Part shown: one piece after another, positions 13,575 through 25,048 of the stretch
Numbering within the stretch: the stretch's first letter is position 1
Layout of the letters: the number at the start of each line of letters is the position of its first letter
Source of the DNA: Clostridiales bacterium
Lineage (GTDB): Bacteria > Bacillota > Clostridia > Oscillospirales > Oscillospiraceae
DNA: 37,745 bases
Assembly (NCBI GenBank): GCA_029010715.1
Contig: JAQXKZ010000043.1
Coordinates: 1 to 37,745, forward strand
Direction: 5' to 3'
Notes under the pieces: generated by a model
The model's input: the letters and a program-made list of their open reading frames with translations, nothing else
Database searches by the model: none
Told to the model about the DNA's origin: nothing
Position numbers and translations under genes: made by a program

Positions 13575-14927
13575 TCAGTCCTCCTGCGGTCCGGCGTCCG
13601 GCCCGCAGTCCGCGTCGCTTTTCTTCAGCGCAAACGTCATCATGCATTTGACATAAGAGGCGTAGTCGTTGAACATTTCCAGCTCCATCACGGTTCCCGT
13701 CTCCGTCCTCTTCGCCAGCTCGCTGGATATCATGTATTCGCCGTCCTCCTGCAGCGGCGACGGTGTGTAGAACGTACCGCTCTCGCAATCCACCGGTCCG
13801 CCCAGCAGCAGCTCCGCGTGCATTGCGCCTGCCTGGAATATAAGGCCCGCCCGTTTTCCGCTGATGAAGTCTCCGGTCGTGTGCCGTACAAAGGTGGTAT
13901 ACACTCTTCGCTGCAGGTCTGAGTTTTCCGGTATCAGCTCTATGTGCGCTCCGTCGTATTTAACGCTCTCTCCGGATTTTGCATCCTGACGGCTGTACTT
14001 GTAGTACCTCATCACGTCGTCGGCGCTGATAAATCCGGTCATGCCCTCCTTATCCGTCACGAAGGCGAACAGCTTTCCTCCGTTTATCATCTGATCCGCC
14101 AGCTCGGTCATAGTCGTGCTTTCGTTGACCACGCACAGATTCTGCGCGCTGTCCATCAGCTCCGACAGCTGTCTGTCCGGCGCTGCGCCCATGGCCGTTA
14201 TTCCGTCGATGGAGCCGCATATCTTCAGCCTGTCGTTTACCACCGCGCATACCGTCCCGTCCGCAAACAGCTTCTTGTACAGCCGGTTCCACTCCGTCAT
14301 CATATCGTCGTAGTACAGATATCTCGGCAGCTGCATCCAGTCGCGCACTTCAGACATCTCCCTTTGCGGAAGTCCCCGCTCCAGCTTTCTGTTCAGCCTC
14401 GAAATTATCGCCGAGCTTTCCTGCTCCGACACAAAGATGCATCTGTCCATGCTCTCCGCCGTTATCAGCAGCTTGTGCGACGGATACGTTCTGCCGGTGA
14501 GCATCAGGTCCGCACCCATGTCCATCGCCATCTGCTGCAGCTCCGGCCGGTCTCCTATAAAGCACAGCGCATTTCCTTCGTTTCTCTCCAGCGCCGACCT
14601 GAGCTGTTCCACGCTTCCGTCCGCCAGCACCACCGGAGGCAGCGGAAGACTGTCCGCTCTCGCCGCGCCGCACACGCAGACCGCTCCGAGCTGTCGTGCC
14701 GCCAGACCGAGCGACATCTCTCCCGTTTCGTCGTTCCCGTTTATTCTTACCGTTCCGACCTTCGGCTTGGTCCTGACCAGTCCCTGGGTCTCAGCAAGCT
14801 TTATACATTTATATGCCGTACCCTCGCTCACACCGAGTCCGCTTGCCAGCCCTCTGACGGATACTTTATCTCCGACCTTCATGCCGGCAATGAAGTCCAT
14901 TACCGCGCTTGTTTTAACATTTCCCAC
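13575..14927 (-). CDS. YtoI-like regulator: HTH, DRTGG, CBS pair and hotdog domain
   Basis: A 450-residue protein with the layout of Bacillus YtoI. Residues about 1-65 form a GntR/DeoR-like helix-turn-helix (VSVRGLASGLGVSEGTAYKC). A DRTGG domain (about 75-185, with LPPVVLADGSVEQL and DLMLTGRTY) and two CBS modules (about 195-310) follow. The C-terminal thioesterase-like hotdog (about 330-430, with TFVRHTTGDFISGKRAG and AGAMHAELLLGGPVD) ends it. CBS modules usually bind adenine nucleotides and hotdog folds bind acyl-CoA, so it may sense energy or acyl-CoA state; that is inference. GTG start with AGGAG upstream. It diverges from the bcd operon and is the natural candidate to regulate it. Confidence 0.8.
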   Translation of the reverse strand: MGNVKTSAVMDFIAGMKVGDKVSVRGLASGLGVSEGTAYKCIKLAETQGLVRTKPKVGTVRINGNDETGEMSLGLAARQLGAVCVCGAARADSLPLPPVVLADGSVEQLRSALERNEGNALCFIGDRPELQQMAMDMGADLMLTGRTYPSHKLLITAESMDRCIFVSEQESSAIISRLNRKLERGLPQREMSEVRDWMQLPRYLYYDDMMTEWNRLYKKLFADGTVCAVVNDRLKICGSIDGITAMGAAPDRQLSELMDSAQNLCVVNESTTMTELADQMINGGKLFAFVTDKEGMTGFISADDVMRYYKYSRQDAKSGESVKYDGAHIELIPENSDLQRRVYTTFVRHTTGDFISGKRAGLIFQAGAMHAELLLGGPVDCESGTFYTPSPLQEDGEYMISSELAKRTETGTVMELEMFNDYASYVKCMMTFALKKSDADCGPDAGPQED

Positions 14928-15000: not shown

Positions 15001-15156
15001 TAGACGTTATAGCATTTTTATATAACAGTTTGCTTGTTTTTTTGTTATGTTCACCTCATTGTGTCATGAGATTGTCAAATCTGTTATATAATATTGAATT
15101 TTTTTATTGTTAAAAGCGTAATTATAGAGAAAATTGAACAGTTGCCGCTTCTCCGA

Positions 15157-15186
15157 TTGACGTTCTTTGCACAAATGTGCTATTAT
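15157..15186 (+). promoter_or_regulatory. Promoter of the bcd operon with an embedded inverted repeat
   Basis: TTGACG at 15157-15162, an 18-base spacer and TATTAT at 15181-15186. The spacer contains the inverted repeat GCACAAATGTGC (15169-15180), a good position for an operator. It does not match the Rex or CRP consensus. The stretch 15001-15156 is AT-rich and otherwise empty. Confidence 0.6.
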
Positions 15187-15316: not shown

Positions 15317-16459
15317 ATGGATTTCCAGTTTACAGAACAGCAGAGCATGATTCGTGACATGGTGCGTGAGTTTGCAGAAGCAGAAGTCAAGCCCCTTGCC
15401 AAGGAAATTGATGAGACCGAGCGCTTCCCCATTGAGAACGTTAAGAAGATGGGCGAGATGGGTCTCAACGGTCTGGCTTACCCCGAAGAGTACGGCGGAA
15501 GCGGCGCCGGTCAGGTCGCATACGTCCTGGCGGTTGAAGAGCTCGCAAAGGTCTGCGCCACCACCGCTATCATTCTTTCCGCAAGTGCATCTCTGGGCAG
15601 CTGGCCCATATACAAGTTCGGTACCGAAGAGCAGAAGCAGAAGTATCTTGCTCCTATCTGCCGCGGCGAGAAGCTGAGCGCTTTCGCTCTGACCGAGCCC
15701 AGTGCCGGTACCGACGCTTCCATGCAGAAGTCCACTGCAGTTCTCGAGGGTGACCACTATGTTCTCAACGGCGGCAAGATTTTCATCACCAACGCCACCC
15801 ACGCCGACGTTTTCATCACCTTCGCCATGACCGACAAGTCCCAGGGCACCAAGGGCATCACCGCTTTCATCATTGAGCGCGGCTACGAAGGCCTGACCAT
15901 CAGCGAGCCCGAGAACAAGATGGGCCTGCGCGCTTCCGCTACCTGCGAGCTGACCTTCGACAACATGAAGGTTCCCGTGGAGAACCGCCTCGGCGCAGAG
16001 GGCAGGGGCTTCAACATCGCAATGGCTACTCTCGACGGCGGCCGTATCGGCGTCGCTGCTCAGGCAGTCGGTATTGCTCAGGGTGCTATTGATGAGACCA
16101 TCAAGTACACCACTCAGCGTATCCAGTTCGGTAAGAAGATCTCCCAGTTCCAGAACACCCAGTTCACTCTGGCTGACATGCAGACCCGCACCGATGCAGC
16201 TCGCCTGCTGATGCTCAAGGCTGCAGACGCAGAAGAGAAGGGCCTGCCCTACACCGTTCTGGCTGCAGAGGCAAAGCTGTTCGCTGCCGAGACCGCTTCC
16301 TACGTCACCAACCGCGCTGTTCAGCTCTTCGGCGGCTATGGCTACACCAAGGACTTCCCGGTCGAGCGTATGATGCGCGATGCAAAGGTCACCGAGATTT
16401 ACGAAGGCACCAGCGAAGTTCAGAGAATGGTCATCTCTGGCAACATGCTCAGAAAGTAA
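15317..16459 (+). CDS. bcd: Butyryl-CoA dehydrogenase
   Basis: A 380-residue FAD acyl-CoA dehydrogenase, reducing crotonyl-CoA to butyryl-CoA with EtfAB. Visible are AFALTEPSAGTDAS and INGGKIFITN-like (LNGGKIFITNATHADVFI) in the flavin region, then RIQFGKKISQFQNTQF. The C-terminal IYEGTSEVQR carries the catalytic base (E363). The frame opens at 15302, but GGAGG lies nine bases before the ATG at 15317 and MDFQFTEQQ is the standard start. First gene of the C4 operon. Codon use is strongly biased (AAG, CTC, GAG, ATC), consistent with high expression. Confidence 0.93.
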   Translation: MDFQFTEQQSMIRDMVREFAEAEVKPLAKEIDETERFPIENVKKMGEMGLNGLAYPEEYGGSGAGQVAYVLAVEELAKVCATTAIILSASASLGSWPIYKFGTEEQKQKYLAPICRGEKLSAFALTEPSAGTDASMQKSTAVLEGDHYVLNGGKIFITNATHADVFITFAMTDKSQGTKGITAFIIERGYEGLTISEPENKMGLRASATCELTFDNMKVPVENRLGAEGRGFNIAMATLDGGRIGVAAQAVGIAQGAIDETIKYTTQRIQFGKKISQFQNTQFTLADMQTRTDAARLLMLKAADAEEKGLPYTVLAAEAKLFAAETASYVTNRAVQLFGGYGYTKDFPVERMMRDAKVTEIYEGTSEVQRMVISGNMLRK

Positions 16460-16482
16460 GTCCGGTTTCCCGTACACATTAA

Positions 16483-16515
16483 CTATGGCGCGGGGGGCTT
16501 CTCCCTGCGCCATAG
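16483..16515 (+). other. Intercistronic stem-loop between bcd and etfB
   Basis: CTATGGCGC (16483-16491) pairs perfectly with GCGCCATAG (16507-16515); the loop has G and C runs that can extend the stem. No T run follows, so it is more likely an mRNA processing or stability element than a terminator. Confidence 0.5.
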
Positions 16516-16554
16516 AGAAAAAGTAATCTTTATACCTGAATTAGGAAGTATATA

Positions 16555-17340
16555 ATGAAGATAGTTGTTTTTGTAAAACAGGTCCCCAACACCGACGATG
16601 TTAAGCTCGACCCCAAGACCGGCAACATCCGCCGCGAGGGTGTTGAGAGCATCCTGAACCCGATGGACGCAAACGCAGTTGAGGCCGCTCTGCAGCTCAA
16701 GGAGCAGTTCGGCGGTACTGTTGTCGCCGTCAGCATGGGTCCCCCTCAGGCATCCTACGCTCTGAAGAAGGTTCTGGGTATGGGCTGCGATGAGGCCTAT
16801 CTCCTGAGCGACCGTGCCTTTGGCGGTGCCGATACTCTGGCCACCTCCTACACTCTCGCTAAGGCCGCCGAGAAGATCGGCGATTATGATCTGCTTCTGT
16901 TCGGCCGCCTCGCTACCGACGGCGACACCGCTCAGACCGGTCCTGCCGTTGCCGCATGGCTCGGCGTTCCTCAGATCACTCTCGCTTCCACCCTTACCGT
17001 CGAGGACGGCTGGGTTGTATGCGACAGAAAGCTTGGCGGCATGCGCCAGCGCGTCAGGGCAAAGCTCCCCGCCGCTGTCACTGTTACCGGCGATCTGAAC
17101 AAGCCCCGTTATCCGACTCCCATCAACATCATGAAGGCATCCAAGAAGCCGTTCACCACTTGGGGCGCGGCCGATATGGAGTGCGATCCTGCCAAGATCG
17201 GTATGCCCGGTTCCCCCTCCTCCACCAAGGAAGTTCTCGAGCCCGAGAAGCGCAGCACCGATACGAAGTTCTTCACCGGTGAGATGGCCGACATCGCCCA
17301 CGAGCTCGTCAAGACGCTCGAGGCAGAACATCTTATTTAA
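16555..17340 (+). CDS. etfB: Electron transfer flavoprotein, beta subunit
   Basis: A 261-residue subunit of the flavoprotein that partners Bcd. The N-terminus MKIVVFVKQVPNTDDVKLD is typical. The segment DGDTAQTGP (122-130) is the form found in electron-bifurcating Etf, where the beta-subunit FAD splits NADH electrons between crotonyl-CoA and ferredoxin; mammalian-type Etf differ here. It lies 95 bases after bcd and 14 before etfA. A bifurcating Bcd-Etf would conserve energy as reduced ferredoxin; that activity is inferred from family and context. Confidence 0.93.
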   Translation: MKIVVFVKQVPNTDDVKLDPKTGNIRREGVESILNPMDANAVEAALQLKEQFGGTVVAVSMGPPQASYALKKVLGMGCDEAYLLSDRAFGGADTLATSYTLAKAAEKIGDYDLLLFGRLATDGDTAQTGPAVAAWLGVPQITLASTLTVEDGWVVCDRKLGGMRQRVRAKLPAAVTVTGDLNKPRYPTPINIMKASKKPFTTWGAADMECDPAKIGMPGSPSSTKEVLEPEKRSTDTKFFTGEMADIAHELVKTLEAEHLI

Positions 17341-17354
17341 GGAGGCGAGCATTC

Positions 17355-18353
17355 ATGGCAAAGGAAGATTACAAAGGCATATGGGTGTTTGCCGAACAGG
17401 AAAACGGTGTTATAGAGCACACTGTTTTCGAGCTGCTTGCAAAAGCACATGAGCTCCAGGAGCACAACAAGGAAGAGATAGTCGCCGTTCTGCTCGGCAA
17501 TAACGTGGATGCGCTTGCACCCGAGCTTATCGCCCGCGGCGCCGACAAGGTCATCATGGTCAACGATCCGGCTCTTGCCAGCTACAGCGCAAGACCCTAT
17601 CAGGCCGCTCTGACCCAGCTTGTCGAGAAGTACAAGCCCTCCATTCTCCTCTACGGTGCAACTCCTCTTGGCCGCGACCTCGCCCCCAGGCTCATGATCA
17701 CTCTTGACACCGGTCTTACCGCCGACGCTATTGACCTCGGCTATGACAAGGACGGCGTCTTTTACCAGACCACTCCCGCTTACGGCGGAAAGATTCTTGC
17801 GCACATTGTCATTCTGGAGAAGCGTCCCCAGATGGCCACCGTGCATCCCAAGATGTTCACCCCCTTCGATCCCAATCCGGATGCAAAGGGCGAGATCGTC
17901 AAGGAAACCGTCAAGGTCGAAGCCGATTCTGACTATGAGGTCATCGAGTTTGTTCCCGATGAGAATGTCGACGTCAATATCGCTGACAGCGATGTAGTCG
18001 TCGCCGGCGGCCGTGGCATCAAGTCCACGGACGATCTGAAGATGCTTGAGGAGCTTGCAACCCTCCTCGACGGTCAGATCGCTTCCTCCCGTCCTCTCGT
18101 CGACAACGGCTGGCTGCCCCACAGCCGCCAGATCGGTCAGTCCGGTGCTACCGTTACTCCGCGTCTCATGTTCAACGTTGCCGTTTCCGGTTCCGTGCAG
18201 TATGTGCTCGGTATGCAAAAGGCAGGCTGCATCGTTGTCGTGAACCAGAGCAAGGATGCCCCCATTTATGACTATGCTCATTACGGCATTGTCGCGGATT
18301 ACCGCAAGTTCATCCCGGCATTGATCGAAGAGCTGAAAAACAGAGAAGCTTAA
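17355..18353 (+). CDS. etfA: Electron transfer flavoprotein, alpha subunit
   Basis: A 332-residue FAD-binding subunit. The N-terminal domain is GIWVFAEQENGVIEHTVFEL. The C-terminal FAD domain has VVAGGRGIKS, ASSRPLVDNGWLPHSRQIGQSG, the VAVSGSVQYVLGM loop and NQSKDAPIYDYAHYGIVAD, all family signatures. There is no N-terminal ferredoxin domain. GGAGG precedes the ATG. It forms the Etf heterodimer with the preceding gene. Confidence 0.95.
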   Translation: MAKEDYKGIWVFAEQENGVIEHTVFELLAKAHELQEHNKEEIVAVLLGNNVDALAPELIARGADKVIMVNDPALASYSARPYQAALTQLVEKYKPSILLYGATPLGRDLAPRLMITLDTGLTADAIDLGYDKDGVFYQTTPAYGGKILAHIVILEKRPQMATVHPKMFTPFDPNPDAKGEIVKETVKVEADSDYEVIEFVPDENVDVNIADSDVVVAGGRGIKSTDDLKMLEELATLLDGQIASSRPLVDNGWLPHSRQIGQSGATVTPRLMFNVAVSGSVQYVLGMQKAGCIVVVNQSKDAPIYDYAHYGIVADYRKFIPALIEELKNREA

Positions 18354-18522
18354 GTTCTTTCTGGAAACGCCCGACGGGGCGGTGTATGAGTATTCGGCAT
18401 TTATACGGCGAATCCCCTGTAATCCACCTCGTTGGGTAGTTTCAGAAGAGCTTAGTTTTTGCGCGCAATTGACACATAATTAACTATTTAATTCATTGAA
18501 ATGAATAGAAAGGCAGACAATC
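18354..18522 (+). promoter_or_regulatory. Intergenic region before crt with a weak promoter candidate
   Basis: A 169-base gap, the second-longest inside the operon. It contains a small CGCCC/GGGCG hairpin (18368-18381) and TTGACA at 18469-18474. The -10 position 17 bases on reads TTCATT, a poor match. An internal promoter for crt onward is possible but not well supported. Confidence 0.3.
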
Positions 18523-19326
18523 ATGAAAGAGTACAAGTATTTCCTTATTGACATTGCTGACTATGTTGCAACCGTTACCATTAACAACCCCAAGGCTCTT
18601 AACGCTCTGAGCTCCCCCGTTGTTGAAGAGATGATCTCCGTCATCGAAGAGCTGTCCGCCATGACCGACGAGGTTCGCTGCGTCGTCATCACCGGTGCAG
18701 GCGAGAAATCCTTTGTCGCCGGCGCTGACATCAAGGAGATGTACGAGATGGATCCCGCACAGGGCAAGGCCTACGGCATCCTCGGCAGCAAGGCGTTCCA
18801 GATGATCGAAAACATGCCTCAGCCCGTTATCGCTGCTGTCAACGGCTTCGCTCTCGGCGGCGGCTGCGAGCTGGCTATGGCCTGCGACATCCGTATTGCT
18901 GCTGATACCGCCTCCTTCGCACAGCCCGAGTGCGGCCTGGGCATCATCCCCGGCTTCGCCGGCACCCAGCGTATGGCTCGCCTCTGCGGCAAGGGCTTCG
19001 CAAAGATGATGATCTACACCTGCAACCGCATCAAGGCTGATGAGGCTCTCGCTGTCGGTCTGGTCCAGAAGGTCGTTCCTCTCGAGGAGCTGCTCCCCAC
19101 CGCCAAGAAGATGGCTTCCAAGATCGCTTCCAACAGCCCCAACGCTGTTAAGCTCGCAAAGAGCGCTATCAACCAGGGCTACGAGATGGACTTCGTCTCC
19201 GGCAACCTGTACGAGTCCAACCTCTTCGGTCTCTGCTTTGCAAACTCCGACCAGGTCGAAGGCATGGGCGCATTTGTCAACAAGGGCAAGGCAACCTTCA
19301 CCGGCAAGCCCCTTCCCAAAAAGTAA
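18523..19326 (+). CDS. crt: Enoyl-CoA hydratase (crotonase)
   Basis: A 267-residue crotonase interconverting (S)-3-hydroxybutyryl-CoA and crotonyl-CoA. The oxyanion-hole loop is VAGADIKEM. The two catalytic glutamates lie in LGGGCELAMACD (E116) and QPECGLGIIPGFAGTQR (E136). The length is normal. AGAAAGG precedes the ATG. Usually Crt works with Hbd and thiolase in butyrate synthesis, but neither is encoded here. Confidence 0.92.
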   Translation: MKEYKYFLIDIADYVATVTINNPKALNALSSPVVEEMISVIEELSAMTDEVRCVVITGAGEKSFVAGADIKEMYEMDPAQGKAYGILGSKAFQMIENMPQPVIAAVNGFALGGGCELAMACDIRIAADTASFAQPECGLGIIPGFAGTQRMARLCGKGFAKMMIYTCNRIKADEALAVGLVQKVVPLEELLPTAKKMASKIASNSPNAVKLAKSAINQGYEMDFVSGNLYESNLFGLCFANSDQVEGMGAFVNKGKATFTGKPLPKK

Positions 19327-19381
19327 TTTAATCTGGTTCAGAGCTTTCAGGCTCCCAAAAATTTAACGGAGGTTTAAATTA

Positions 19382-20935
19382 ATGGCTAAAATTATGACTG
19401 CTGCGGAAGCAGTTGCTCTTATTAAAGACGGCGATACCCTCGGCACCTCTGGTTTCGTTGGCAGCGTATTTCCTGAAGAAGTCGCACAGGCCATTCAGAA
19501 GTCTTTCCTCGAGACAGGTCATCCCGCAGGCCTGACTGTTGTTCATGCAGCCGGCCAGGGCGATAGCAAAGAGCGCGGCATCAACCACCTCGGTGAAGAA
19601 GGCCTGCTCTCCAGAATCATTGCCGGTCACTACGGCCTCGAGCCCAGGATCCAGAAGCTCGCTCTTGAGAACAAGATCGCTGCTTACAACCTGCCTCAGG
19701 GTGTTATCTCTCACCTGTTCCGTGACATCGCTGCCGGTAAGCCCGGTGTCATCACCCATGTCGGTCTGAAGACCTTCGTCGATCCTCGTCTTGAAGGCGG
19801 CAAGCTGAATGACAAGGCCCGCGAAGCCGGCGACATCGTTCAGCTCATCGAGATCAACGGCGAAGAGAAGCTGCTCTACAAAGCGCTTCCCATCAATGTC
19901 GGTATCATCCGCGCCACCTACGCTGACACCAAGGGCAACCTGACCTTCGAGCATGAGGCTCTCTACGCAGAGGCCGTCTCCATCGCTCAGGCCGCGAAGT
20001 CCTCCGGCGGTATCGTTATCGCTCAGGTCAAGGAGATCGTTGAGTACGGTAACCTCAAGACCCGTCTCGTCAAGATCCCCGGCGTGTATGTTGACTGCAT
20101 CGTAAAGGCTGCTCCCGAGAATCACATGATGACCAACGGCAGCTACTATGTTCCCTCCTACTCCGGCGAGGTCCGCGTTCCTGTCGACGCTCTGGCTCCC
20201 ATGCCTCTCAATGAGCGCAAGATCATGGCCCGTCGTGCAGCTATGGAACTCGTTCCCGATTCCGTTGTCAACCTCGGTATCGGCGTTCCCGAAGGTGTTG
20301 CCTCTGTTGCTGCAGAGGAAGGCCTCGGCGATCAGCTCTCCCTCACCGCTGAGGGCGGCACTGTCGGCGGTATCCCCATGGGCGGCGGCGACTTCGGCGC
20401 TTCCGTGAATGCTGACTGCATTCTGGACCAGCCCTACCAGTTCGACTACTACGATGGCGGCAACCTTGACCTCGCCTGCCTCGGTCTCGCCGAAATGGAT
20501 GCCAGCGGTAACATCAACGTCTCCAAGTTCGGTCCCAAGATTGCCGGCTGCGGCGGCTTCATCAATATCACTCAGAACTCCAAGAAGGTCGTTTACTGCG
20601 GCACCTTCACTGCCGGCGGCCTGAAGGTCGCTGTTCAGGACGGCAAGCTCGTCATCCTGCAGGAAGGCAAGAAGGATAAGCTCGTCGAAAAGGTCGAGCA
20701 GGTCACCTTCTCCGGCGATTACGCCAAGCAGATCGGCCAGCCCGTTCTGTATGTCACTGAGCGTGCTGTCTTCAGACTCACTCCTGATGGCATTGAGCTG
20801 ACTGAGGTTGCACCCGGTATCGACATTGAGAAGGACATCCTTGCTCACATGGGATTCAAGCCCATCATCAAGGACGTCAAGCTCATGGATTCCCGCATCT
20901 TCAACGAAGGCAAGATGGGTCTCACTCTCGAGTAA
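19382..20935 (+). CDS. Acyl-CoA:carboxylate CoA-transferase (family I, YdiF/Pct-like)
   Basis: A 517-residue fused alpha-beta family I CoA-transferase, as in propionate CoA-transferase and YdiF. The alpha half has GDTLGTSGFVGSVFPEE and HAAGQGDS. The beta half (from about residue 280) has NLGIGVPEG and the catalytic glutamate in LTAEGGTVGGIPMGG (E324). GFINITQ and VYCGTFT follow. It exchanges CoA between short-chain acyl-CoA and a free acid such as acetate. It can release butyrate from butyryl-CoA or activate an imported acid; the substrate cannot be read from sequence. It lies 55 bases after crt, with CGGAGG upstream. Confidence 0.88.
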   Translation: MAKIMTAAEAVALIKDGDTLGTSGFVGSVFPEEVAQAIQKSFLETGHPAGLTVVHAAGQGDSKERGINHLGEEGLLSRIIAGHYGLEPRIQKLALENKIAAYNLPQGVISHLFRDIAAGKPGVITHVGLKTFVDPRLEGGKLNDKAREAGDIVQLIEINGEEKLLYKALPINVGIIRATYADTKGNLTFEHEALYAEAVSIAQAAKSSGGIVIAQVKEIVEYGNLKTRLVKIPGVYVDCIVKAAPENHMMTNGSYYVPSYSGEVRVPVDALAPMPLNERKIMARRAAMELVPDSVVNLGIGVPEGVASVAAEEGLGDQLSLTAEGGTVGGIPMGGGDFGASVNADCILDQPYQFDYYDGGNLDLACLGLAEMDASGNINVSKFGPKIAGCGGFINITQNSKKVVYCGTFTAGGLKVAVQDGKLVILQEGKKDKLVEKVEQVTFSGDYAKQIGQPVLYVTERAVFRLTPDGIELTEVAPGIDIEKDILAHMGFKPIIKDVKLMDSRIFNEGKMGLTLE

Positions 20936-20953
20936 TATCCGGCTTGTAAAACA

Positions 20954-21106
20954 ACACTGCAGAGCGCTGTAAACAGTGCTCTGCGGTGTACGGACCGCCG
21001 CCGCTTCGGCGGATGCGATCATAAATCTGACGTGCCACGCCGAAGCGGTTCAAGCAGGCTCCGTATCAAATCAGGGAAGTACTCCTGCAGTATGTACTGC
21101 TGCAGG
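20954..21106 (+). other. Three consecutive stem-loops between the CoA-transferase and maoC genes
   Basis: First, 20954-20989: a 17-bp stem with two G-U pairs and a two-base apex. Second, 20998-21012: CCGCCG, CTT, CGGCGG. Third, 21084-21106: CCTGCAG and CTGCAGG, or alternatively GCAGTA, TG, TACTGC. None is followed by a T run. The 200-base gap is the longest in the operon and is filled by these structures, which suggests differential mRNA stability of the two halves. Confidence 0.55.
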
Positions 21107-21135
21107 GTATAGAGATATTTTTAGGAGGAAAACGT

Positions 21136-21546
21136 ATGACCATCAATGAAATGAGTGTTGGCCAGCAGGCCTCATTCACCAAGACTGTCAGCGAAACTGA
21201 TGTATATCTGTTCGCAGGCATCACCGGCGACCTGAACCCGGCGCATACCAATCAGGTTGCTTCCGAGAAGACCATGTTCAAGGGTCGTATCGCCCACGGC
21301 ATGCTGAGTGCCGGCTTCATTTCTGCAGTTCTCGGTATGTACATGCCCGGCCCCGGCACCATCTACATGGGTCAGGAGCTGAAGTTCACCGCCCCCGTAC
21401 ACATTGGCGATACTATTACCGCCACCGGCACTGTCACCGAGCTGCTGCTCGACAAGAACATTGCAAAGATCGAGACCGTCTGCACCAATCAGGATGGTAA
21501 GGTCGTTGTCAAGGGTATGGCTACCGTAATGCCTCCCAAAGCATAA
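21136..21546 (+). CDS. MaoC-family (R)-specific enoyl-CoA hydratase
   Basis: A 136-residue single hotdog domain. The hydratase-2 signature is intact: LFAGITGDLNPAHTN gives the catalytic Asp (D32) and His (H37), followed by FKGRIAHGMLSAGFISAVLG. This is the PhaJ type, which interconverts crotonyl-CoA and (R)-3-hydroxybutyryl-CoA, the opposite stereochemistry to Crt. The C-terminus (KFTAPVHIGDTITATGTV) completes the fold. AGGAGG lies before the ATG. Its presence beside Crt is unusual for a butyrate operon and points to a D-3-hydroxybutyrate branch. Confidence 0.88.
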   Translation: MTINEMSVGQQASFTKTVSETDVYLFAGITGDLNPAHTNQVASEKTMFKGRIAHGMLSAGFISAVLGMYMPGPGTIYMGQELKFTAPVHIGDTITATGTVTELLLDKNIAKIETVCTNQDGKVVVKGMATVMPPKA

Positions 21547-21610
21547 GCGATATCCAGCGAATCCCCCCCAAAAAACAAAAAATAAATAAATTATTTGAGG
21601 AGACTAATCA

Positions 21611-22900
21611 ATGGACGTAGTAACCATATTCCTTGGCCTTGCCCTTCTTATGTTCCTTGCATTCAGAGGCCATTCCATCATCTGGGTTGCACCTCTCTGT
21701 GCTGCATTCGTTGCCCTCTGCGGCGGCCTGAATCTTCTTGACGCTTACAAGACCACCTACATGGAAGGTGCTGCAAACTACTTCAAGCAGTGGTTCCCCG
21801 CCTTCTTCCTCGGCGCTGTCTATGGCAAGATCATGGACAAGACCGGTTCTGCCCGTAGCCTCGGCCAGAAGCTGGTTTCCTGGATCGGTGCCAAGAACGC
21901 AATGCTCGCTGTCGTTCTCCCCTGCATGCTGATGACCTACGGCGGCATCTCCCTCTTCGTCGTCGTTTTCGTTATCTACCCCATGGGCTACGCTATCTAC
22001 CGCGCTGCTGACATCCCCCGTACCAAGCTGCCCGGCGCTATCGCCTGCGGTGCTTTCGGTATCACCATGACCGCTGTCCCCGGCTCCCCCCAGATCCAGA
22101 ACCTGATTCCGATGCAGTTCTACGGCACCACCCCGACTGCCGCTCCTCTGCTCTCCATCGTCGCCTGCGTTGTTATCGGTCTGCCTGCTCTTATCTGGCT
22201 CCAGCTCGACATCAACAAGGGCCGCAAGGCTGGTCTGCACTTCGAGGAAGACCCGAAGTTCGTTGAGGCTTCGCATGGTGAGATGCCCTCCTGGCACTGG
22301 CTCTCCGGTCTGCTCCCCGTCATCGCCGTTGTTGTCGTTCTGAACGTCTTCAAGCAGGACATCGTTGTTGCTCTGCTTGCCGGTATCATTCTCTGCTGCG
22401 TCATGAACTGGAAGCAGTACAAGATCCTTCTCCCCTCCATATCTGAAGGTGCTGACGGTTCTCTGACTGCTATCATGAATACCTCCTGCGCTGTCGGTTT
22501 CGGCTCCGTTGTTAAGGCTGTCCCCGGCTTCACCAAGCTCTGCGACGCCATGCTCAACATGCCCGGCTCCATCCTCTTCTCTGAGGCTGTTGCAGTTAAC
22601 GTTCTGGCCGGTGCTACCGGTTCCGCTTCCGGCGGTATGTCCATCGCTCTGACCGCCCTCGCTCCCAAGTACCTGGAGATCGCAAACCAGATCGGTCTTG
22701 ACCCCGGTGTCCTGCACCGTATCGCTTCCATCTCCTCCGGCGGTCTCGATTCTCTGCCGCACAACGGCGCTGTTCTCACCCTGCTTGCATTCTCTCACTG
22801 CACTCACAAAGAGTCCTACTGGGGCATCTGCGTTACCACCGTTATTATCCCGGTCATCGCTTCCCTGGTCCTGGCTCTCGTTTGGGGTCTGTTCATCTGA
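21611..22900 (+). CDS. GntP-family permease, probable hydroxy-acid or short-chain acid transporter
   Basis: A 429-residue polytopic membrane protein with about 11-12 hydrophobic segments. It begins VVTIFLGLALLMFLAF. GntP-type features include VLPCMLMTYGGISLFVVVFVIYPMG, AVPGSPQIQNLIP and, near the end, SGGLDSLPHNGAVLTLL. GntP relatives carry gluconate, D-serine and D-3-hydroxybutyrate. The last gene of the C4 operon, 64 bases after maoC and followed by a strong terminator. Its position beside a CoA-transferase and an (R)-hydratase favours 3-hydroxybutyrate or butyrate/crotonate as cargo; this is inference. Confidence 0.85.
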   Translation: MDVVTIFLGLALLMFLAFRGHSIIWVAPLCAAFVALCGGLNLLDAYKTTYMEGAANYFKQWFPAFFLGAVYGKIMDKTGSARSLGQKLVSWIGAKNAMLAVVLPCMLMTYGGISLFVVVFVIYPMGYAIYRAADIPRTKLPGAIACGAFGITMTAVPGSPQIQNLIPMQFYGTTPTAAPLLSIVACVVIGLPALIWLQLDINKGRKAGLHFEEDPKFVEASHGEMPSWHWLSGLLPVIAVVVVLNVFKQDIVVALLAGIILCCVMNWKQYKILLPSISEGADGSLTAIMNTSCAVGFGSVVKAVPGFTKLCDAMLNMPGSILFSEAVAVNVLAGATGSASGGMSIALTALAPKYLEIANQIGLDPGVLHRIASISSGGLDSLPHNGAVLTLLAFSHCTHKESYWGICVTTVIIPVIASLVLALVWGLFI

Positions 22901-22944
22901 TAGTAAGGGATGTACAAAGCGCTTTAAAAAACAAATACATAAAA

Positions 22945-22974
22945 ACAGACGTGGGTTTTCCCACGTCTGTTTTT
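22945..22974 (+). terminator. Terminator of the C4 operon
   Basis: A perfect 11-bp stem ACAGACGTGGG / CCCACGTCTGT with a four-T loop, A-rich on the left and TTTT on the right. Confidence 0.9.
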
Positions 22975-23047
22975 CTATGCAAAAGCATTGCAAAAAACAT
23001 GATGCGCCATTTTCCCGCCCCTTTGCGGCAAGCGAGAATGATGCGCA

Positions 23048-23201: not shown

Positions 23202-23230
23202 TTGACAAAACTCTCTCATACGTGTATATT
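23202..23230 (+). promoter_or_regulatory. Strong SigA promoter of the ammonium transporter
   Basis: TTGACA at 23202-23207, a 17-base spacer and TATATT at 23225-23230. Transcription should begin near 23237, a few bases before the leader hairpin. Confidence 0.8.
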
Positions 23231-23241
23231 ACCGTCCATAA

Positions 23242-23290
23242 AGGCAAAGGTGCCCGGATTTTCCAGGTGCCTTTGCCTCATTTTATTTTT
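23242..23290 (+). promoter_or_regulatory. Terminator-like hairpin in the ammonium transporter leader
   Basis: From 23242 to 23278 the RNA folds into one long stem: 17 positions with one mismatch and two G-U pairs, three-base apex, arms AGGCAAAGG and CCTTTGCCT outermost. It is followed by TCATTTTATTTTT. It lies between the promoter and the start codon, so full-length mRNA needs read-through. Nitrogen-dependent attenuation is the likely meaning. Confidence 0.65.
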
Positions 23291-23308
23291 GTTGGGAGAT
23301 GTGTTCGC

Positions 23309-25048
23309 GTGACAGTAGAATTTTGGTATCTCATAGGCGCAGTTCTGGTGTTCTGGATGCAGGCAGGATTCGCCATGGTCGAGACAGGCTTTACCCGCGC
23401 AAAGAATGCCGGTAATATAATCATGAAAAACCTGATGGATTTCTGCATCGGAACGATAGTGTTCTCTCTGCTTGGCTATTCTCTTATGATGGGTCAGGAT
23501 GCCCTGCGCGGTCTTGTCGGACTTCCCAACCTTCAGCTTTGGACCAACTTCAGGGAAATAATCGCCTCCCCCTCTGACGGAAGCTTTACCGCTGCCTCTA
23601 CCTTCGTCTTCAACCTGGTTTTCTGCGCAACCACCGCCACTATTGTGTCAGGCGCCATGGCTGAGCGTACAAAATTCTCCGCCTACTGTATATACTCCGC
23701 CGTCATATCGCTCTTTATCTACCCCATTGAAGCGCATTGGATCTGGGGCGGCGGCTGGCTCTCCCGACTCGGCTTTCATGACTACGCCGGCTCGTGTGCC
23801 ATTCATATGGTCGGTGGGATTGCCGCTCTCGTCGGCGCAATAATACTCGGACCCCGCCTCGGAAAGTATGTTAAGGACGAAAAAGGCAAGGTCTTAAAGG
23901 TCAACGCAATTCCCGGACACTCGATCACCCTTGGTGCGCTCGGTGTGTTCATTCTCTGGCTTGGCTGGTACGGATTCAACGGCGCTGCCGCAACCAACGT
24001 ATCCGAGCTCGCCTCGATCTTTCTCACTACCACAATCGCGCCCTCGGTGGCAACCGTGACCACTATGCTTTACACGTGGTTTAAGAACGGTAAACCTGAT
24101 GTCTCCATGTGTCTCAACGCTTCTCTCGCCGGGCTTGTCGGGATCACCGCCGGCTGCGATGCACTGGACACTATCGGTTCCTGCGTCGTCGGCATAGTCT
24201 CCGGCATACTCGTCGTCGTCGTTGTCGAAGCTCTTGACCTGAAGCTGCATATTGACGATCCCGTCGGTGCTGTCGGCGTGCACTGTGCCAACGGTATCTG
24301 GGGCACTTTGGCCGTAGGTCTGCTCGCAAACCCGTCCGCTCCCGCCGGTCTGAGCGGACTGCTCTACACAGGCTCCGCCTCCCTGCTCGGCATCCAGTGC
24401 CTCGGTGTTCTGACCGTCGCCGCTTATGCCACCGTCATGATGTTCGCAGTATTCGTGCTTATCAGGAAATTCAACGGACTCCGCGTCGCGCCGGAGGATG
24501 AGGTCGCGGGTCTTGACAGTACCGAGCATGGTCTGCCCAGTGCCTACCCTGACTTCGCCCCTGCCGTTAACAAGTACTCTGCCTATGCTCCGGAGGAGGG
24601 TATTACAGCCGTTACAGGTGATGTGCCCGAGGCCGAAGCCGTACCCGTAAAGGTAGCCGCCGGCTATGCGTCCCCCGCCGTGCAGGATGGCCACAAGTTC
24701 ACCAAAGTCGAGATCATATGCAAGGACTCCCGCTTCGACGCGCTCAAGACCGCCATGGCAAAGCTCGGCATAACCGGTATGACCGTGTCGCATGTCCTCG
24801 GCTGCGGCATACAGGGCGGCCAGCCTGAATATTATCGCGGCGTCCGCCTTGAATCGAACCTGCTCCCCAAGGTACAGGTCGACATTGTCGTCAGCAAGAT
24901 TCCCGTACGCAGCGTAATAGAGACTGCAAAGCGCGTCCTCTATACCGGCCACTACGGTGACGGCAAGATATTTGTGTATGACGTTGAGAACGTCGTTAAG
25001 ATCCGTACCGGTGAAGAAGGTTACGACGCTCTGCAGGACGTCGAGTAG
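23309..25048 (+). CDS. Ammonium transporter fused to a P-II regulatory domain (AmtB-GlnB)
   Basis: A 579-residue protein. Residues about 1-400 are an 11-segment Amt channel: FWMQAGFAMVETGFTRAKN at the N-terminus, the signature GFHDYAGSCAIHMVGG with the first pore histidine, and VGVHCANGIWGTLAVG with the second. After a linker of about 60 residues, the last 115 form a P-II protein (KFTKVEIICKDSRFDALKTA). Its T-loop GCGIQGGQPEYYRGV keeps the Tyr of the YRG motif, and GKIFVYDVENVVKIRTGE is the C-terminal signature. P-II normally plugs the channel when 2-oxoglutarate is low, so the fusion is a self-gated transporter. The GTG at 23309 has GGGAG ten bases upstream; the frame is open to 23222, but that lies in the promoter. 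Confidence 0.93.
   Translation: MTVEFWYLIGAVLVFWMQAGFAMVETGFTRAKNAGNIIMKNLMDFCIGTIVFSLLGYSLMMGQDALRGLVGLPNLQLWTNFREIIASPSDGSFTAASTFVFNLVFCATTATIVSGAMAERTKFSAYCIYSAVISLFIYPIEAHWIWGGGWLSRLGFHDYAGSCAIHMVGGIAALVGAIILGPRLGKYVKDEKGKVLKVNAIPGHSITLGALGVFILWLGWYGFNGAAATNVSELASIFLTTTIAPSVATVTTMLYTWFKNGKPDVSMCLNASLAGLVGITAGCDALDTIGSCVVGIVSGILVVVVVEALDLKLHIDDPVGAVGVHCANGIWGTLAVGLLANPSAPAGLSGLLYTGSASLLGIQCLGVLTVAAYATVMMFAVFVLIRKFNGLRVAPEDEVAGLDSTEHGLPSAYPDFAPAVNKYSAYAPEEGITAVTGDVPEAEAVPVKVAAGYASPAVQDGHKFTKVEIICKDSRFDALKTAMAKLGITGMTVSHVLGCGIQGGQPEYYRGVRLESNLLPKVQVDIVVSKIPVRSVIETAKRVLYTGHYGDGKIFVYDVENVVKIRTGEEGYDALQDVE

Follow-up and report, generated by a model that had tools for sequence, protein, structure and literature searches.

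A seven-gene clostridial operon as the probable reductive half of a 3-hydroxybutyrate fermentation

Operon structure

The window analysed here is a stretch of 37,745 nucleotides from a Clostridiales bacterium (GenBank assembly GCA_029010715.1, contig JAQXKZ010000043.1). It contains a run of seven genes, bcd-etfB-etfA-crt-CoA-transferase-maoC-gntP, on the forward strand at 15317-22900. The original prediction described the run as a possible self-contained pathway from 3-hydroxybutyrate to butyrate that lacks thl and hbd. The genes, their strand and the absence of thl and hbd from the operon are as described; the run is read here, with moderate confidence, as the reductive half of 3-hydroxybutyrate fermentation.

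The run opens with bcd (15317..16459), for a short-chain acyl-CoA dehydrogenase of the butyryl-CoA dehydrogenase type, followed by etfB (16555..17340; Pfam ETF, 152 bits) and etfA (17355..18353), for the beta and alpha subunits of an electron transfer flavoprotein. Next come crt (18523..19326; Pfam ECH_1, 237.7 bits), for a crotonase-type enoyl-CoA hydratase; cat (19382..20935; Pfam CoA_trans), for a fused family I CoA-transferase of the YdiF/FadX type; and maoC (21136..21546), for a predicted (R)-specific enoyl-CoA hydratase of the PhaJ type. The last gene, gntP (21611..22900), encodes a permease. Gaps between the genes, from bcd to gntP, are 95, 14, 169, 55, 200 and 64 bases.

The strong terminator predicted for the end of the run is an intrinsic one, a hairpin plus T-run at 22941..22974 on the forward strand (symmetric, so that it would serve both strands); the fold at 22925-22990 has an energy of -26.4 kcal/mol (z -7.6), matched by none of 200 shuffles. 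Strong hairpins also occupy the 200-base cat-maoC gap (z -6.8) and the 169-base etfA-crt gap (z -3.0); a terminator scan of the window gave no forward-strand terminator in either gap. All seven genes are presumably carried on a single transcript.

Enzymes of the operon

Among solved structures, Bcd is closest to the C. difficile enzyme (5ol2_C, E 1.6e-158); it contains the motif YEGTSE and is 63% identical to Bcd of a larger operon in another clostridial genome (G177). Its top NCBIfam model is the acryloyl-CoA reductase AcrC, at 521.9 of the 640 bits required. An acrylate operon (lactate to propionate) was considered and rejected; AcrA (272.6 of 600) and AcrB (187.1 of 475) also score under their cut-offs.

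The closest solved relatives of EtfA are electron-bifurcating (6fah CarE, 4kpu and 5ol2), and EtfB keeps the motif DGDTAQ, common to EtfB of G177, G353, G347 and G443. EtfA reads SGSVQY where all four aligned solved EtfA proteins and all four relatives from the class have SGxxQH. Tyrosine occupies this site, which we take to be near the flavin, in six of nine rows from the genus; the three with histidine are more distant (two from G047, one from G059).

Crt, presumably an (S)-type hydratase from its family, has the short-chain-enoyl-CoA hydratase 5z7r as its closest solved relative. The CoA-transferase, with alpha and beta chains fused, aligns with YdiF (2ahu, E 3.6e-136), including the EGG/ETG glutamate, presumably the catalytic residue; against the FadX model it scores 419.5 of 750, under the cut-off. 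The D-x-N-P-x-H motif of PhaJ-type hydratases, reported earlier as intact in MaoC, is present as D-L-N-P-A-H. The closest solved relative of MaoC is the (R)-specific enoyl-CoA hydratase 5cpg (E 1.9e-33), and the protein shares 66-67% identity with its counterpart in G177.

Permease context and substrate

GntP belongs to its Pfam family (GntP_permease, 37.6 bits against a cut-off of 22.5) and falls short of the gluconate-symporter subfamily model (35.6 of 292.75); a sequence search of solved structures, run to an E value of 1, gave no relative. Relatives at E<=1e-60 occur in 14 of 391 genomes of the class, the window's own included. In 12 of the 13 others the permease gene adjoins four-carbon (C4) acyl-CoA genes, G317 being the exception. 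It stands beside a 3-hydroxybutyrate dehydrogenase in five of the 13, four of these also with thiolase and ScoAB; the three of these dehydrogenases that were scanned all pass TIGR01963, and the other two were named by BLAST only. In six of the 13 a family I CoA-transferase of the window type is directly adjacent, in varied company (Hbd, short-chain dehydrogenase/reductase (SDR), thiolase, MaoC, Crt, Bcd-Etf), and in one the neighbouring cluster combines crt-bcd-etfBA with a class III transferase.

Other loci show similar associations. Salsuginibacillus kocurii has thiolase, activator, cat, gntP and SDR genes together; a Selenomonadales metagenome-assembled genome has gntP, cat and thiolase (L028); a Rossellomorea plasmid has gntP with an annotated 3-hydroxybutyrate dehydrogenase. 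In a GntP tree of 39 rows, the window protein groups with 13 of the 15 rows from C4 contexts. GntP is matched by 102 plasmid records, and at six chosen places the neighbours are mixed: one annotated 3-hydroxybutyrate dehydrogenase, one CoA-transferase, two patatin-like proteins, one 3-keto-5-aminohexanoate cleavage protein and one set of unrelated sugar-type genes. Taken from gene context, 3-hydroxybutyrate is most likely the substrate of the window permease.

The transferase was followed at 23 named genome loci, two of which are the operon itself. Of the 21 others, nine have MaoC, GntP, thiolase or SDR nearby (L027, L028, L030, L031, L035, L038, L040, L043 and L047) while the remaining 12 show none of these; neighbours were identified solely by BLAST against our own reference set, and some of the loci span just 3-5 kb.

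Conservation in related genomes

Three metagenome-assembled genomes carry the operon: the window's own (G000; 1.99 Mb, 94.7% complete) and its closest relatives, G063 (84%) and G011 (86%). The gene-order survey proposed earlier finds the entire run in identical order in G063 (L041/L106), with identities to the window of 78% for bcd, 81% for etfB, 84% for etfA, 92% for crt, 84% for cat, 91% for maoC and 87% for gntP. In G011 (L042), the order is identical over the part that the contig covers, crt to gntP.

The window's own genome contains a second module of similar composition (G000:C5, L048 9009-17041): LysR, gntP, acyl-CoA dehydrogenase, etfB, etfA, family I CoA-transferase and maoC, with no crt. 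It is also present in G063 (L049); none was seen in G011. Identities to the window genes are 36% for gntP, 46% for the dehydrogenase, 67% for etfB, 55% for etfA, 53% for cat and 42% for maoC. The MaoC motif is intact, and the dehydrogenase reads IGEGTNE against IYEGTSE in the window. Since its GntP falls outside the clade of the window and C4-context proteins, the second module likely acts on another 3-hydroxy acid.

Two more loci in the genus, L097 (G063:C5, 7845-18346) and L056 (G002:C106, 4731-12600), combine an acyl-CoA dehydrogenase and Etf with class III CoA-transferases; L056 also has a GntP permease. Modules that reduce enoyl-CoA seem abundant in this genus.

Genome-wide search for oxidative and related genes

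The search for thl and hbd elsewhere in the window's own genome found neither. Thiolase (PF00108) has no match there; 30 of 102 genomes of the genus have matches, 25 of them above the cut-off, but these 30 do not include any of the three genomes with the operon. No full-length Hbd (PF02737) was found in the three carriers, only partial matches that peak at 22.5 bits and cover no more than 64 of 180 positions; four full-length Hbd proteins from elsewhere score 208-221 bits. The sole PF02737 hit in the window's own genome was rejected as Hbd, as its translation reads as that of a TrmFO-like protein; the partial hit in G011 stays under the 22-bit cut-off. D-3-hydroxybutyrate dehydrogenase is above its curated cut-off in none of the three carriers.

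By profile scan, the window's own genome has an rnfC-D-G-E-A-B gene run. RnfG scores 95.9 of 102, RnfE passes the RsxE model but is just under the rnfE cut-off, and the other subunits are above a cut-off. An RnfD-family subunit is present in all three carriers. [FeFe]-hydrogenase is present in G011 and weak in G063; it was not found in the window's own genome. The search for butyryl-CoA:acetate transferase in that genome gave no match beyond an ScpC-type protein.

Two loci elsewhere in the same genome may relate to C4 metabolism. At G000:C17 (L104, 7858-11490) genes for a major facilitator superfamily (MFS) transporter, ScoA, ScoB and an SDR stand in a row; this is possibly an uptake cluster for acetoacetate or another 3-oxoacid. 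Its SDR scores 173 of 307 for 3-hydroxybutyrate dehydrogenase, under the cut-off. At G000:C1 (L156, 10257-11801) a protein resembling 4-hydroxybutyryl-CoA dehydratase (AbfD) is encoded behind a sigma-54-type activator, the activator being read from translation. The dehydratase-like protein matches 1u8v at E 3.5e-100, with the C-x3-C and H-x6-C residues, presumably iron-sulfur ligands, aligned. A partial paralogue lies on a partial contig of G011; none was found in G063, which is 84% complete.

Proposed pathway and alternative explanations

On balance, the operon probably provides the reducing branch of 3-hydroxybutyrate fermentation, with the C4 acid as an external electron acceptor for other fermentation. 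GntP would import 3-hydroxybutyrate, and the family I CoA-transferase would activate it, probably with CoA from butyryl-CoA. Dehydration to crotonyl-CoA would fall to MaoC for the (R)-stereoisomer and to Crt for the (S)-stereoisomer; Crt may serve the (S)-substrate or be a remnant. Bcd-EtfAB would reduce crotonyl-CoA to butyryl-CoA with NADH, and the transferase would release butyrate. The reading builds on gene content, order, conservation and absences, the last within the limits of the assemblies; from these we infer each reaction, its direction, the substrate and the CoA cycle.

These steps retain much of the original prediction: the permease type, activation by the transferase, (R)-dehydration by MaoC and reduction by Bcd-Etf all fit the gene context and the closest solved relatives. 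The description as self-contained does not hold. With no hbd and thl, the operon could only consume electrons, and it must draw them from other metabolism. Since the searches gave no full-length Hbd, no thiolase and no D-3-hydroxybutyrate dehydrogenase above the curated cut-off, oxidation of the C4 acid presumably does not take place.

A single transferase for both activation and release is plausible in the window's own genome, where it fits the lack of a butyryl-CoA:acetate transferase beyond the ScpC-type protein. Reduction of ferredoxin, feeding the Rnf complex, is possible and less certain, because a tyrosine replaces the histidine of the four aligned bifurcating EtfA proteins; the rnf run would give such reduction an outlet.

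Several observations weigh against this interpretation. Some Hbd-profile hits formally pass the 22-bit cut-off, in G000 (22.4 bits with neighbours) and in G063 (22.5 and 22.2 bits; two of three), and all the carrier assemblies are incomplete. The ScoAB-SDR-MFS cluster could be a means of handling acetoacetate or of oxidising the acid. The tyrosine in EtfA weakens the case for bifurcation. A cycle with one transferase does not apply to all carriers, since G063 and G011 have proteins with 41-48% identity to butyryl-CoA:acetate transferase. Support for the C4-context GntP clade is 93/96, not starred, and a Vibrio plasmid permease of another context falls inside it; the nearest GntP relatives (66-70% identical; G074, G083 and G317) adjoin no gene of the reference set, judged from adjoining genes only. 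Finally, crotonyl-CoA could arise internally, since the window's own genome and G011 encode the dehydratase-like protein.

This last point leads to an unlikely alternative, in which the main role of the operon is to complete an internal 4-hydroxybutyrate route from succinate or gamma-aminobutyrate: the dehydratase would give crotonyl-CoA for Bcd-Etf to reduce, and the permease and hydratases would be secondary. The strong match of the AbfD-like protein to 1u8v, its partial paralogue in G011 and the ScpC-type transferase in the window's own genome are in keeping with such a route. However, it needs no MaoC, Crt or GntP, three of the seven genes; moreover, the dehydratase gene is on a different contig beside a sigma-54-type activator and was not found in G063 (84% complete), where the operon is present.

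It is similarly improbable that the operon serves a different 3-hydroxy acid or takes the enoate directly (candidates being crotonate, 3-hydroxypropionate and 3-hydroxyvalerate), by the same logic of CoA loop and reduction as in the inositol-to-propionate pathway of Anaerostipes. The transferase-hydratase-dehydrogenase set reported there works on a C3 compound (PMC8355322); AcrC is the best NCBIfam model of the window dehydrogenase, though under its cut-off, and the second module suggests reuse of such a set for some other acid. Against this stand the C4-specific genes that other genomes have next to GntP and next to the transferase, together with the likeness of Bcd to the C. difficile and G177 enzymes. 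Ordinary dismutation, with thiolase and hbd in unassembled parts of the genome, is very unlikely: complete dismutation sets occur in other Clostridia and the three assemblies do leave room for missing genes, but thiolase and full-length Hbd matches are missing from all three carriers, and their joint loss from three assemblies is improbable.

Regulator, RNA elements and flanking genes

A divergent gene on the reverse strand (13575..14927) encodes a regulator with a GntR-like helix-turn-helix, a DRTGG and a CBS domain, a distant relative of SpxR (CBS-HotDog). DRTGG scores 29 bits, above its cut-off, and CBS (23.9) and GntR (20.3) score below theirs; against the SpxR model the protein reaches 89 bits, far under the cut-off of 600. 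It is 49-50% identical to the regulator of G063, likewise divergent to the operon.

Between regulator and bcd lies a candidate operator (15013..15096, no strand assigned), an inverted repeat whose two arms, of the type TATATAACAG / CTGTTATATA, are 84% complementary and separated by 46 nt. Both arms are kept upstream of the G063 operon, where one is a perfect palindrome, TGTTATATAACA. Four matches to the operator type with at most two mismatches occur in the window against 0.31 expected; three are in the regulator-bcd intergenic region and one is inside etfA. A promoter-like site on the forward strand (15157..15186), TTGACG-18-TATTAT, its second hexamer preceded by TG, is a consensus match only; TTGAC and TGTGCTATTAT are both kept in G063.

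The hairpin between cat and maoC (20998..21051, forward strand) has a conserved core, TGCGATC / GACGTGCCAC, and is found at the same place in all three operons. It folds alike in each, with outer-stem pairs that vary but remain paired. The core pattern is matched by nine of 169 loci, all nine being copies of the three operons. A known RNA family in this gap was rejected, as there is no Rfam match; the hairpin is possibly a processing or regulatory RNA element. Ahead of it, at 20954-20989, is a second hairpin with 17-nt arms, 88% complementary, and a 2-nt spacer; the alignment is gapped here in both G063 and G011.

Just downstream of the operon, a single reading frame (23222-25048) encodes a fusion of an ammonium transporter with a P-II domain. 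A promoter-like site lies near this gene, at 23202-23230.

Significance

3-Hydroxybutyrate in the gut is presumably of host origin. If the proposed pathway is correct, a compound released by animals themselves could be a source of butyrate, and one more organic electron acceptor would compete for reducing power in the gut. A bolder version is tentative and rather doubtful: a gut bacterium that respires a host ketone body, with 3-hydroxybutyrate solely as electron acceptor, butyrate made with no pathway from acetyl-CoA, a ferredoxin-linked energy gain via Rnf, and the module duplicated for another 3-hydroxy acid.

In 2026, 1,897 genomes of gut Clostridia were surveyed for four routes to crotonyl-CoA, none of which starts from imported 3-hydroxybutyrate and its reduction (PMC13106387). 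Of the 687 species there whose but or buk branch was complete, 519 were reported to have at least one full route, or 569 if one missing block was allowed; by subtraction, 168 (or 118) species are left with none (PMC13106387). If the proposed pathway is correct, part of this gap could be tested directly through a search for the cat-maoC-gntP set.

Comparison with known systems

The classical butyrate operon is thl-hbd-crt-bcd-etfBA. The window operon shares crt, bcd, etfB and etfA with it; in contrast, it has no thl or hbd, and a permease, MaoC and a family I transferase are added. Caffeate reduction in Acetobacterium woodii uses a transferase loop and is not known to involve hydratases. As proposed for the window, an external enoate is reduced there by a dehydrogenase-Etf complex, CarCDE; the substrate is aromatic, unlike that proposed here, and CarE has extra iron-sulfur clusters (PMC5861303). 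The same source reports bifurcation by Bcd-EtfAB from several butyrate formers (PMC5861303).

The bbu cluster of Emergencia timonensis, which converts gamma-butyrobetaine to crotonyl-CoA, is a reported case of an imported compound that feeds crotonyl-CoA as electron acceptor (PMC8364193). There too an imported C4 compound is activated with CoA and butyrate is formed; the cluster differs in its class III transferases and betaine transporter, it is described with no enzyme of crotonyl-CoA metabolism, and crotonyl-CoA also goes to acetyl-CoA in that organism (PMC8364193).

The OxcT-EcdH-AcaD set of Anaerostipes, with AcaD-Etf, resembles the window operon in that one CoA-transferase is proposed for activation and release, alongside a hydratase and a dehydrogenase-Etf pair (PMC8355322). 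In contrast, its C3 substrate is made inside the cell and its Etf genes (1050-1052) lie apart from oxcT-ecdH-acaD (1115-1117); that source, in the part available, describes no GntP or MaoC with the set (PMC8355322).

Fermentation of 3-hydroxybutyrate to acetate and butyrate has long been known in Ilyobacter polytropus (PMC3035301). In G177 (L141, G177:C6, 3977-17793) the genes activator-cat-gntP-maoC-crt-hbd-thl-bcd-etfB-etfA-but are, judging by their content, a complete operon for such a dismutation. Its Hbd and butyryl-CoA:acetate CoA-transferase are confirmed by profile, the latter above the curated cut-off. MaoC and Crt together could pass the (R)-form via crotonyl-CoA to the (S)-form, which Hbd would oxidise. 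Cat, gntP and maoC stand beside bcd-etfBA here as in the window, and the proteins are alike (cat 61%, gntP 56%, crt 55% identical; bcd and maoC as given above). The window operon differs in gene order, in its CBS-type rather than sigma-54-type regulator and in the absence of hbd, thl and but; the oxidative branch of a dismutation operon (hbd, SDR or 3-hydroxybutyrate dehydrogenase, with thiolase) is thus missing from it.

The earlier suggestion that this gene set had not been described as a unit stands in part: no description of a cat-maoC-gntP-bcd-etf unit was found in open-licence literature with queries not worded exactly for the gene set, yet related sets with added hbd/thl or SDR occur in other Clostridia. 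Because these hold the same genes plus an oxidative part, the window operon is a pared-down member of a broader family. The C4 chemistry is already known; what is new is the stripped, reductive-only operon.

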